Below, one piece after another: positions 38,457 through 41,536 of a DNA stretch of 64,000 bases; within the stretch, counting starts at the first letter, position 1, and each line of letters starts with the position of its first letter. The DNA lies in the NCBI GenBank assembly GCA_905182565.1, contig CAJJCB010000018.1:1-64000 (forward strand). Reading direction: 5' to 3'. The translations under genes and the position numbers were made by a program. Source of the DNA: Acidimicrobiaceae bacterium. GTDB lineage: Bacteria; Actinomycetota; Acidimicrobiia; Acidimicrobiales; Poriferisodalaceae. A model generated the notes under the pieces. It saw nothing but the letters and a program-made list of their open reading frames with translations, was not told the DNA's origin and did not search any database.

Positions 38457-39302
38457 ATGGTTACTCTGCAATGTATGGATATTAAGGACAAGGTAGCGAT
38501 AGTTACGGGTGCAGGTAGCGGAATCGGGAAAGCAATAGTTGAACGATTCCACGATGAAGGGGCTAGAGCTATCGTCGTTGTAGATCGAGATGGCGATGGA
38601 GCTCAAAAAGTTGCTGCTTCAGTAGGCGCACGAGCCGTAGCTCTCGATGTCACTGATGAAAAAGCGATCGCAAAACTAGTTTCGGAAACGGTCGAAGAGA
38701 ATGGTTGCCTTGATATTTTTGTTTCAAATGCCGGTTACGTAACACAGGGCGGCTTAGAAGTTGAAAACCAAGAGATACAAAGAATGTGGGAAGTCCACGT
38801 GATGGCTCACATCTATGCGGCTCGATCAGCAGTTCCCGTGATGGCTGCTAACGGGGGAGGATACCTGTTGAATACAGCCTCAGCGGCAGGTCTGCTTACT
38901 CAGCTGGGTTCAATGCAATACGCGATTACCAAAGCAGCAGCAGTCTCATTAGGTGAGTTTCTTGCGATTACTTACGGTGAGAGGGGCATAAAAGTTTCAA
39001 TGTTATGTCCGCAAGCTGTCGAGACAAATATCTTAAAAAATAGTCCAGATAAATTAGACCAGGGGAATGGAACTCCTGGAGCGGCTGCAGGCGATGGTGT
39101 TCTTCAACCTGAAGAGTTAGCCGAAACTGTTATCCAATGTATGAGAGAAGAGCGGTTTCTTGTACTCCCGCACCCAGAGGTTCAGACATACAGAGAGAGA
39201 AAAGCAGCAGATACTGACCGATGGATTGTTGGAATGCAACGATTCCAGAGCCGTTTGTTTTCTCAGAGTGATGTGACGCCAGCTGACTGGTTCTTGGGGT
39301 AA
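38457..39302 (+). CDS. SDR-family oxidoreductase
   Basis: 281 aa; an internal ATG at 38475 (MDIKDKVAIVTG) would give the more usual N-terminus and may be the true start. TGAGSGIGKAIVERF cofactor motif, SNAGYVTQGG (NAG), catalytic Ser in NTASAAGLLTQL and YAITK. No glycine-rich C-terminal DGG; instead it ends with ADTDRWIVGMQRFQSRLF, as in classical SDRs linked to CoA-transferase clusters. 6 nt upstream of the broken DUF2889 gene, with which it was probably co-transcribed. Confidence 0.88.
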   Translation: MVTLQCMDIKDKVAIVTGAGSGIGKAIVERFHDEGARAIVVVDRDGDGAQKVAASVGARAVALDVTDEKAIAKLVSETVEENGCLDIFVSNAGYVTQGGLEVENQEIQRMWEVHVMAHIYAARSAVPVMAANGGGYLLNTASAAGLLTQLGSMQYAITKAAAVSLGEFLAITYGERGIKVSMLCPQAVETNILKNSPDKLDQGNGTPGAAAGDGVLQPEELAETVIQCMREERFLVLPHPEVQTYRERKAADTDRWIVGMQRFQSRLFSQSDVTPADWFLG

Positions 39303-39308
39303 AAGTTT

Positions 39309-39715
39309 ATGCATCTAAGGGAGCCTGAAGGAGTTGAACTTCATCCCCGCAGTTATGAAGTTAGCGCTTATTCCACCAGACCAGGAGAACTACTACTTCG
39401 CGGAAGGGTTATGGATGAGAAACCGCCTGGAGTTTATTTCGAAAATGATTCGGAGCCCCTTAGATACATCACATGGTCATTGATGTATCGGTTTCCTTTC
39501 CCGATTTAATAATTACTAATGCCATAGTCGTAACGGAAACCCACTCTCATGAGGGCTGCATGAAAATAGTTGACCATTCTAAAAAATTAGTAGGTTTGTC
39601 AATCGCTCTAGGCTTTACAAAAAAAGTTCGGGAACTCTTTGGAGGGCCAAGAGAATGTAGTCACACGACAGCTCTTTTGAATGCGATGGCTCCTGTGGCC
39701 ATCCAATCGGTCTGG
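39309..39715 (+). pseudogene. DUF2889-type gene, frameshifted and truncated at a tRNA fragment
   Basis: Two frames together encode one recognisable protein. Frame one (from ATG 39309) gives GVELHPRSYEVSAYSTRPGE, LLLRGRVMDEKPPGVYF and DSEPLR; the second continues with IHHMVIDVSVSFPDLI, SHEGCMKIVDHSK and FGGPRECSHTTALLNAM, as expected for DUF2889. The switch is at about 39464, where re-using one A (AGA then ATA) restores the text, i.e. a one-base deletion or a sequencing error. After QSVW (39715) the frame enters the tRNA-Pro fragment and GC-rich DNA, so the native C-terminus is lost. Follows the SDR gene by 6 nt. Confidence 0.75.
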
Positions 39716-39753
39716 GGGACCGAAGGTCGGGAGTTCAAATCTCCCCAGCCCGA
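39707..39753 (+). tRNA. 3' half of tRNA-Pro(GGG); 5' half absent
   Basis: Cloverleaf parts are exact: anticodon stem TCGGT/ACCGA around the 7-nt loop CTGGGGG (anticodon GGG), variable loop AGGTC, T arm GGGAG-TTCAAAT-CTCCC, acceptor strand CAGCCCG and discriminator A. No CCA is encoded. A partner acceptor strand (CGGGCTG) and a D arm should lie about 30 nt upstream, but that DNA is the DUF2889 coding sequence instead. The first nine bases (TCGGTCTGG) belong to both. It cannot make a functional tRNA as it stands; it looks like an att-type remnant or a join. Confidence 0.85.
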
Positions 39754-39772
39754 TACACAGTTTGCAGGTCAG

Positions 39773-39795
39773 GGCCGGTCCTTTGGGGCCGGGCC
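39773..39795 (+). terminator. GC-rich hairpin just after the tRNA fragment
   Basis: GGTCC/GGGCC (one G-T pair) plus two C-G pairs close a TTTG loop, with two more pairs after a one-base bulge. It starts 20 nt beyond the tRNA 3' end, a normal place for a tRNA terminator, but has no T tract. Confidence 0.35.
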
Positions 39796-39916
39796 GTCGA
39801 GTCGATGCATCGGGACTGGGGCGGAACCCGCCAGTTCCTCGAACGGCCCACGAGCGTGCCAGTCCTCCATCTCGCCGAAGTCGATCACGGTCTCATTGTC
39901 GAGCCCCCGGTTGGGC

Positions 39917-39954
39917 GTGAACACGGATGGGTACCCATCGTGACCCGTGTTGAC
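39917..39954. repeat. 38-bp inverted-repeat dyad with perfect 14-bp palindromic centre
   Basis: A perfect palindrome GATGGGTACCCATC at 39926-39939 is flanked by ten-base arms GTGAACACGG (39917-39926) and CCGTGTTGAC (39945-39954) that pair with one mismatch. Such nested dyads occur in recombination sites and structured RNAs. It sits in the GC-rich block, 164 bp from the tRNA fragment. Confidence 0.5.
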
Positions 39955-40312
39955 CTCCCGGATGGACCCCAGCAGGAGGAAATCGTCTACCGGGAAACTG
40001 GTGACAGACGGCGCCTCCTGCGCTGACGGCATCTACTACAGGCGGGTGAAGTAAGCGCCGGTCCATACCTCAACTTGAGATGCCGAGGAGCAGGCTGCGA
40101 GACGTCGCGAACTAGAGCGAACCGGTGATCAACTAGAACAGCAGTTCAGAGGCGGTTTCCGGGTGTTTCCCCAGGTCAGCGGTTTTGGGGGTGCATCGAT
40201 CTGGTCTATGAGGTCGGTTTCTGCGACTGCGTAGATAGTTGATCCTCCAGTGACGGATAGAGAAAATATCGAACAAATCAGAACGAGTATGGCCTTTAAT
40301 TCAAATACCTGT

Positions 40313-40342
40313 CACATATGGTCTGATCCTGGCCCATATGTG
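40313..40342. repeat. Inverted repeat CACATATGG / CCATATGTG
   Basis: Perfect nine-base arms at 40313-40321 and 40334-40342 separated by 12 nt. It lies 70 bp beyond the 3' end of livM and may act as a terminator for the minus strand, though no clear T tract follows on that strand. Confidence 0.45.
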
Positions 40343-40411
40343 CGGTCAGATTGAAGCCGGTTAGGAACTTCCGTCTCCTATTTGGGCAGAAGAAAGAGCA
40401 CAAAAGCTTGG

Positions 40412-41536
40412 TCAGTCTATTTCGTCTTGGGGAGAGGGCATGTCCGGCGTTTCGCCTTCCAGCCAGCCTTCTAATGCTGAAAGCCGCTGGTCCACTCTTT
40501 CGAGCGTCTGGACAATGTTTGACTGTGTATTAGGGTCGGCATCTGGTCGGTTCTGACGAGAACTTTGCCTTTTTTCGATAATGGTCATGAACCCTTTACC
40601 TTTAGTCAAGTAGGCAGTTCCTAGTAACAAGGCGGCGTAGATAAAGCCTTCCGACTTGATGAAGCCGATCCAGCCTCTTTCAACTACCCAGTTGTGGTCC
40701 ACGAGCCAAATCGGTAAAAAGATTAAAATAATAGAACCTGGTACTGCAGCGATGACACTCGCACCGCCGAGAGCTATTGCCAAGGCAAACATTTTTATAG
40801 AGAGTTCTTCAGGGAAGTGGGTGTAGTCATTGAAATTAACCGGCACTAACAGAAGTCCACCTGCAAGGCCAGCTAAGCCGCCGCTGAGCGCTACCCCGTA
40901 GAGTCGAAGTCTGTATACCGGTATTCCAAAAGCCGCCGCTGCCTCCGGTTCGTCTCGGCTCGCAAGAAATGCTCTACCTATAGGCCCGCGAAGGATTCCT
41001 TGGACTAAAAAGAGGGCAATTGCTGAATAGCTTAAGACGATAGCAAATTCCCAAATGTGCTCGTCATTAGCAGCAATACCAGTCCAACCGGGAGTATTGA
41101 ATTTCCCGTCCAGAGTAACTGGCAAATTACCATCAATCTGCTTAAGAACAATTGGGAATGCAACAGCAAGAGACAAAGTCAGAAGAGCTAGATAAGCCTT
41201 TGGAAGGCGAAGCGAAGGAACCGCTACAACAGCACCGGCGATAGCTCCGCCGATAAGTCCAGCAAGCGGCATCCACACAACTGGGACACCGAAATCGTTG
41301 ACAGCGTGAAGAGCGCAGTATGCACCAACTCCGATAAAGGCCCCTTGCCCCAAGGAAAGCAGCCCTAAATAATGAGTCAAGATGGCTAGCCCAGCAAACG
41401 CCAAGGTCATGGCTGCAGCGTTCGTAGCATTCGTCACTGTTCTAGAGGTTGCGGTGAATGCTACCCATCCGATAAAAGTTGCGAAGATTGCCAGTCCCAG
41501 AACTGAAACGATCCGCGATGTTATAGATCCCTTCAT
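40412..41536 (-). CDS. livM: Branched-chain amino acid-type ABC transporter permease LivM
   Basis: 374 aa with about nine or ten hydrophobic segments. LivM text includes LGLLSLGQGAFIGVGAYCAL, LRLPKAYLALLTLSLAVAFP, GPIGRAFLASRDEPEAAAAF and AVPGSIILIFLPIWL. A hydrophilic C-terminal tail after residue 325 has coiled-coil character (TLERVDQRLSALEGWLEGE). Forms the inner-membrane channel with LivH; its ATG overlaps the livH stop by 4 nt. The livG/livF ATPases and binding protein that normally accompany it are absent downstream, where the GC-rich block and tRNA fragment lie. Confidence 0.9.
   Translation of the reverse strand: MKGSITSRIVSVLGLAIFATFIGWVAFTATSRTVTNATNAAAMTLAFAGLAILTHYLGLLSLGQGAFIGVGAYCALHAVNDFGVPVVWMPLAGLIGGAIAGAVVAVPSLRLPKAYLALLTLSLAVAFPIVLKQIDGNLPVTLDGKFNTPGWTGIAANDEHIWEFAIVLSYSAIALFLVQGILRGPIGRAFLASRDEPEAAAAFGIPVYRLRLYGVALSGGLAGLAGGLLLVPVNFNDYTHFPEELSIKMFALAIALGGASVIAAVPGSIILIFLPIWLVDHNWVVERGWIGFIKSEGFIYAALLLGTAYLTKGKGFMTIIEKRQSSRQNRPDADPNTQSNIVQTLERVDQRLSALEGWLEGETPDMPSPQDEID

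Follow-up and report, generated by a model that had tools for sequence, protein, structure and literature searches.

The 64,000-nt window, i.e., the whole stretch of DNA analysed here, contains a DUF2889 gene that is interrupted by a 489-bp insertion carrying the 3′ half of a tRNA-Pro(GGG) across its left border. We consider it probable, at close to 90%, that this insert is a minimal integrative element resembling a CIME and lacking an integrase, that it belongs to a family of the Acidimicrobiia which targets tRNA-Pro(GGG), and that it entered a secondary site by recombination at the anticodon loop.

The interrupted DUF2889 gene

The insert extends from position 39716 to 40204 (plus strand; counted with one TCTGG copy) and is precise to the base. 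Copies of TCTGG flank it at 39711-39715 and 40200-40204. One genome of the same genus, G038, was used for comparison. In this genome the insert is absent and the base corresponding to 39715 directly abuts the one corresponding to 40205: window positions 39300-39715 align to G038 at 89%, and the alignment continues directly with positions 40202-40420 at 86%. The G+C content is 62% in the insert and 47% in the flanks. Judged from these sequence comparisons, we regard the insertion as real and as an unusually clear off-target insertion, of a kind that is already known.

The target site in DUF2889 reads ATCGGTCTGG|TCTATG, and the ends of the element, if joined, read ATCGATCTGG|GGGACCG. Over the ten positions ATCG(A/G)TCTGG the DUF2889 site and attP match at nine, and the single mismatch is a G at the left border and an A at the right border. 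Because of this distribution, the exchange is placed to the right of the mismatch, in or just after TCTGG, which corresponds to the anticodon loop of the tRNA. The left TCTGG copy, at the anticodon-loop position, is the crossover in attL, and the right copy belongs to attR. The identity shared by the two borders is limited to 5 bp; within the 7-nt loop overlap, attP and the chromosomal site differ in the final three bases (GGG and TCT, respectively). Secondary sites are characterised by a target that is uninterrupted in close relatives and partly matches attP, and both are seen here (empty site in G038; 9/10).

The interrupted gene belongs to PF11136 (E-value of 1e-20 in Pfam with the two upstream frames joined). 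Its 5′ part (39309-39715, plus strand) is 88% identical to the intact DUF2889 gene of G038 (L026:2902-3594, 230 aa), and alignment to the same gene located its 3′ part at 40205-40491 (plus strand). The initial annotation had taken QSVW as the end of the protein. This applies to the Pfam domain only: the G038 protein goes on with SMRSVSATEQ..., and the continuation in the window starts at 40205. The C-terminus that was suspected at another locus is thus found behind the second border, 489 bp downstream, and there is no need to look for this remainder or for the 5′ tRNA half elsewhere in the genome. The gene order SDR - DUF2889 - branched-chain amino acid permease is the same in the window, in G038 and in G036, which has a second intact orthologue of 231 aa. 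Relatives with intact DUF2889 and tRNA-Pro genes had been named as a potential refutation of the chimera, while an insertion predicts exactly such relatives.

Besides the insert, three lesions distinguish the window gene from that of G038: a 1-nt deletion after 39461 (39461/39462), upstream of the insert, due to which the domain has to be read in two frames, an in-frame stop codon (TAG, 40232-40234), and one extra nucleotide near 40337. We classify the DUF2889 gene of the window as a pseudogene on the basis of this alignment. Its decayed state would fit an insertion that is old enough for decay.

No recognisable gene was found in the 489-bp insert by Pfam and homology searches. An 87-aa ORF on the minus strand (39769-40032) was rejected as a gene; it has no Pfam match, and its hits are weak and contain stops. 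The interior (39790-40060) gave no convincing homologue, with short, chance-like matches only, and no larger ancestor could be assigned to this copy. An origin from a phage, plasmid or virus was also rejected, the matches being short or tRNA-like only. PF00589 had no match in the insert or on contig C18, in agreement with the initial statement that no integrase is visible in the window.

The tRNA-Pro half and the attachment arms

The 47 nt at positions 39707-39753 (plus strand; TCGGTCTGGGGGACCGAAGGTCGGGAGTTCAAATCTCCCCAGCCCGA) represent the 3′ half of a tRNA-Pro(GGG) and comprise the anticodon stem-loop with GGG, the variable loop, the T arm, the acceptor strand and the discriminator. The fusion of this half to DUF2889, as initially proposed, was confirmed: all 47 positions are identical to the 3′ part of the intact tRNA-Pro(GGG) of the Acidimicrobiaceae MAG SP351 (L062). 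A search for an intact tRNA-Pro(GGG) in the host genome, also suggested by the initial annotation, located a copy on contig C12 (G000) that matches the half at 35 of 47 positions. The difference between these two values shows that the tRNA half is foreign, and that the element came from a lineage other than the host. ARAGORN called no complete tRNA in the whole window, and Rfam gave sub-threshold tRNA-like matches only.

The first nine nucleotides of the half, TCGGTCTGG (39707-39715), are common to DUF2889 and the tRNA, and positions 39716-39753 are borne by the element. The shared 9 nt had been recognised correctly; the simple splice derived from them does not hold, since the insertion is clean, 489 bp long and has a second border. 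With 26 copies in the genome, compared to 22 for the reversed control, the 9-mer by itself is unremarkable. In spite of this common 9-mer, a chance origin of the junction is excluded by the two att borders, the second of which lies at 40200-40204, and by the empty site in G038.

The right end of the insert was searched against 298 genomes of the order and the right-end motif against 84,980 species genomes, and convincing matches were restricted to Acidimicrobiia. The right arm of the insert (40085-40199, plus strand) holds GCGAGACGTCGCGAA and GTGATCAAC and ends with ATCGATCTGG. Right arms of 85-120 bp are present in other MAGs of the Acidimicrobiia, and nine aligned right arms share 40 invariant columns. 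In other genomes the end of the arm, ATCGATCT, leads directly into the 3′ half of tRNA-Pro(GGG) at seven junctions (in bin95s, ActinoDeep01, G296, G191 and G314) and into the 3′ half of tRNA-Met(CAT) at three (in G030 and SI072_bin141). All ten junctions have the same crossover, ATCGA-TCTGG/TCTCA followed by the Pro or Met 3′ half. An extra copy of the right arm in G296 leads into a tRNA-Gly half.

At the left end the tRNA half is followed by GCAGGTCAGGGCCGGTC..., and this end shows 88% identity over 78 nt in bin95s and 81% over 68 nt in G026. The left arm (tRNA half plus about 30-40 nt) is present at L178 and L031. It is also located 3′ of intact tRNA-Pro genes in several families, where it includes a strong terminator-like hairpin. 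The hairpin GGCCGGTCC-TTTG-GGGCCGG of the window (39772-39795, plus strand) is a degenerate counterpart, with a z value of -1.2 that is no stronger than shuffles, versus -5.8 for the hairpin of a relative. Three direct repeats of the GCAGGTCAG type flank the core, one in the left arm (39764-39772) and two in the right arm (40141-40149 and 40171-40179, all on the plus strand), and the motif is also found after tRNA-Pro and tRNA-Asn in related loci. These repeats resemble the arm-type sites of integrases and are putative sites of this kind. These similarities identify the two ends of the insert as attachment arms of a family of integrative elements found across the Acidimicrobiia.

Integrases and choice of the target site

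Behind the intact tRNA-Pro(GGG) of SP351 (L062) lies a truncated tyrosine integrase, and a right arm is located 1.2 kb further at the contig end. G133 has a full-length tyrosine integrase (376 aa; PF00589, E-value 1e-23; L169:7320-8450); 47 bp separate the end of its gene from an intact tRNA-Pro(GGG), and over the C-terminus the protein is 83% identical to the SP351 fragment used as query. A related integrase by tRNA-Pro(GGG) in G215 is partial, being cut by the contig end. Since the integrases of SP351, G133 and G215 all adjoin tRNA-Pro(GGG), this tRNA can be considered the normal target of the family, and its recombinase to be of the tyrosine type. Elements of 1-10 kb with remnants of integrases occur at tRNA-Pro in relatives. 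A 10.5-kb element at tRNA-Pro(GGG) was observed in G242 (C1, L172 5282-15817). Its boundaries are an intact tRNA-Pro on one side and a 3′ half of this tRNA on the other, and it codes for a relaxase-like protein of 1055 aa and an integrase that is truncated.

The host genome, a MAG of 95.6% completeness, yielded no matching integrase. Its recombinases are two Xer-like proteins, which we take to be Xer from their scores and the usual number of two per genome, and one non-Xer integrase at the end of contig C4. The search for an integrase elsewhere in the genome, as put forward initially, thus led to an unrelated protein, which is 26% identical to the tRNA-Pro integrase and encoded near a tRNA-Arg. 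The C4 gene (G000:C4, L094 1-1404) is cut by the contig end and lies beside an ORF for an excisionase-like helix-turn-helix protein and tRNA-Arg(TCG). This locus is probably a different integrative element.

The anticodon stem of the host tRNA-Pro(GGG) is CTTGT/ACAAG, versus TCGGT/ACCGA in the tRNA half of the window. An absent or altered primary attB is a further characteristic of secondary-site use, and the changed stem, the 35/47 identity and the high completeness of the host genome agree with it. These data suggest that the divergent anticodon stem of the host tRNA-Pro led to the use of a secondary site; the incoming element may have found no good primary site in this host. The site in DUF2889 matches the whole left arm of the stem plus CTGG, the first four bases of the anticodon-loop core. 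The choice of this site is not accounted for by TCGGTCTGG, considering its many genomic copies.

Proposed origin of the insert and comparison to known systems

In a circular form of the element, attP would be composed of the tRNA-Pro 3′ half preceded by the right arm (...GGGGGTGCATCGATCTGG), with GTGCATCGATCTGG joined to GGGACCGAAGG as the predicted junction. A tyrosine integrase from a larger parent or a helper element would recombine this attP with ATCGGTCTGG in DUF2889. By this integration the tRNA half would come to lie behind the Trp codon of DUF2889 on the left, the right arm would form the other border, and the gene would be inactivated. The insertion was presumably catalysed by an integrase that was either supplied in trans by a helper or lost later by internal deletion. 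The initial annotation had suggested an attP with a tRNA half and integration at a secondary site by a tyrosine recombinase acting on anticodon loops. This suggestion gains support from the empty site, the two att borders, the arms of the family and the ten junctions. Points against it are the negative search for a matching integrase in the host, the 5-bp identity of the borders with its divergent loop bases, and the interior of the insert, for which no convincing homologue was obtained.

Two features of elements integrating at anticodon loops are present: one half of attP contains the target tRNA's 3′ portion, starting in the anticodon loop, and in relatives the other end joins displaced tRNA 3′ halves with the same crossover (ten junctions). 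The element has no tyrosine integrase gene of its own, and the integrated copy does not restore the target tRNA, as the 5′ side is DUF2889. Since no tRNA is restored at the site, the insert is to be seen as a defective derivative at a secondary site and not as a standard island. Two features of CIMEs are found, the loss of integration and transfer genes and the retention of attL and attR (both TCTGG copies and both arms). As it lacks two features of the island class and has these two of CIMEs, we file the insert as a CIME-like minimal element.

A variant of this explanation, which differs in the order of events alone, assumes that a larger element with its own integrase entered DUF2889 and that a later internal deletion left 489 bp between the arms. 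We give it somewhat less than an even chance, a value that is not exclusive of the one for the main reading. The 1-10 kb elements of relatives, with their integrase remnants at tRNA-Pro, are in favour of such a deletion, and the extra lesions in DUF2889 imply that the locus had time for decay. However, the 489 bp show no trace of an integrase coding sequence or of another gene, and a unit in G030 (L033) that has a right arm and a comparable length of about 240 bp implies that short units may move as such.

It is very improbable that, with no site-specific recombinase involved, the insert arose by illegitimate recombination at 5-9 nt of microhomology or is a captured foreign fragment. The common and frequent TCGGTCTGG could serve as such microhomology, and joining would also result in short identities at the borders, but both borders match, to the base, the conserved ends of the att family and the anticodon-loop crossover of the ten other junctions, and a random fragment is not expected to start and stop at both arms. 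Other unspecific rearrangements, which the initial annotation had considered, are likewise disfavoured by the identity of both ends as att arms of the family. Even less credible is an artefact of assembly or binning leading to a chimeric contig. It could be suspected because the assembly comprises multiple contigs and the composition of the insert is foreign. Such a join, also among the initial alternatives, is disfavoured by the two flanks, which are parts of one gene that is contiguous in G038. In addition, the insert is base-precise with borders sharing 5-9 nt, below usual assembly overlaps, and DUF2889 is independently inactivated by changes on either side, which a true pseudogene would be expected to show.

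Among known systems, our preferred reading, a CIME-like element at a secondary site, can be compared to the genomic islands in tRNA genes compiled in Islander (PMC4383910, which cites Williams 2002), and especially to the class with attachment at the anticodon loop ('A'). Common to both are a 3′ tRNA fragment in attP and the crossover in the anticodon loop; relatives have an associated tyrosine integrase, and tandem junctions leave displaced tRNA 3′ halves. Unlike this class, the element of the window targets a protein gene, does not restore a tRNA, has a length of 489 bp and lacks an integrase. Islander rejects candidates under 2 kb, without integrase, or overlapping Pfam coding domains (PMC4383910), and such cases would escape island finders that demand an integrase, a size above 2 kb and the absence of Pfam overlap. 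CIMEs are cis-mobilizable elements that have lost integration and transfer genes and kept attL and attR (PMC5704250, after Pavlovic et al. 2004). The insert likewise has att sides and no such genes, and its relatives show tandem accretion. In contrast to CIMEs it is much smaller and occupies a secondary site instead of lying beside a related element in the usual target, and its mobilisation is putative.

SGI1 (PMC2297512) and SXT (described there) use a partly matching secondary site where the preferred attB is absent, and substitutions in the overlap are tolerated. Similarly, the element of the window has a preferred attB yet uses a partly matching site, with substitutions inside the overlap. 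Those cases are laboratory transfers of large elements, whereas the copy in the window is natural, small and decayed, and its primary site is a tRNA with a diverged anticodon arm. ICEs and integrative plasmids of actinobacteria that occupy tRNA genes, such as the G242 segment, have the same target tRNA and the same kind of integrase, and are likely the source lineage of the arms. Unlike the insert, these elements leave the tRNA restored and possess an integrase, a relaxase and cargo.

The locus appears to be a natural off-target integration by an anticodon-loop recombinase, precise to the base, for which empty site, borders, source tRNA and a plausible reason are available together. The tolerance of such integrases may extend to one stem arm plus the loop bases CTGG, and the locus shows a route by which lone tRNA halves arise in coding genes. 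A broader idea, which we consider doubtful, is that Acidimicrobiia harbour non-autonomous two-arm elements of less than 500 bp, an analogue of MITEs for tyrosine integrases, which use tRNA-Pro or tRNA-Met integrases in trans and enter protein genes if the anticodon arm has diverged. The arm family, with Pro and Met as targets and related arms at Gly and Asn, makes detailed mapping possible.

Further loci with these arms were noted. A second case of secondary-site integration was sought in G026 (L031) and G027 (L032), where the flanks gave no clean empty site. The repeated junctions of right arms and tRNA halves in several genomes prompted us to consider an integron-type cassette array, an idea that was rejected, as tandem accretion and ordinary integrases at tRNA-Pro suffice. 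In the unit of about 240 bp in G030 (C26, L033 about 9873-9642), a degraded 3′ end of tRNA-Pro lies on the left and a right arm leads into a tRNA-Met(CAT) 3′ half; this may be a further very short member of the family. A second junction of right arm and Met half follows after 2.2 kb (L033 7571-7454). In ActinoDeep01 (contig 10, L059 6600 and 7598) two tRNA-Pro half junctions with different right arms are 1 kb apart, and the second type of right arm, GACGTCCTGGACAGATTTCTGTG, is also present in G036 (L028). A 9-kb segment of G296 (C9, 25.6-34.6 kb; L106, L053, L063) starts with an intact tRNA-Gly(GCC), ends with the junction of right arm and tRNA-Gly half and contains an internal junction of right arm and tRNA-Pro half, as if elements with different tRNA specificity had been combined. 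In G027 (C146), a chimeric tRNA 3′ half (L032 7846-7800), similar to tRNA-Pro(GGG) at its start and to tRNA-Met at its end, lies in an intergenic region of which related genomes have a version shorter by about 60-80 bp. In SP351 (G329:C23, L108 5111-4084) an intact tRNA-Asn(GTT) is followed by the left-arm motif CCGCAGGTCAGGACCGGTCC and a truncated integrase pointing away from the tRNA; this motif is therefore common to elements at different tRNAs.
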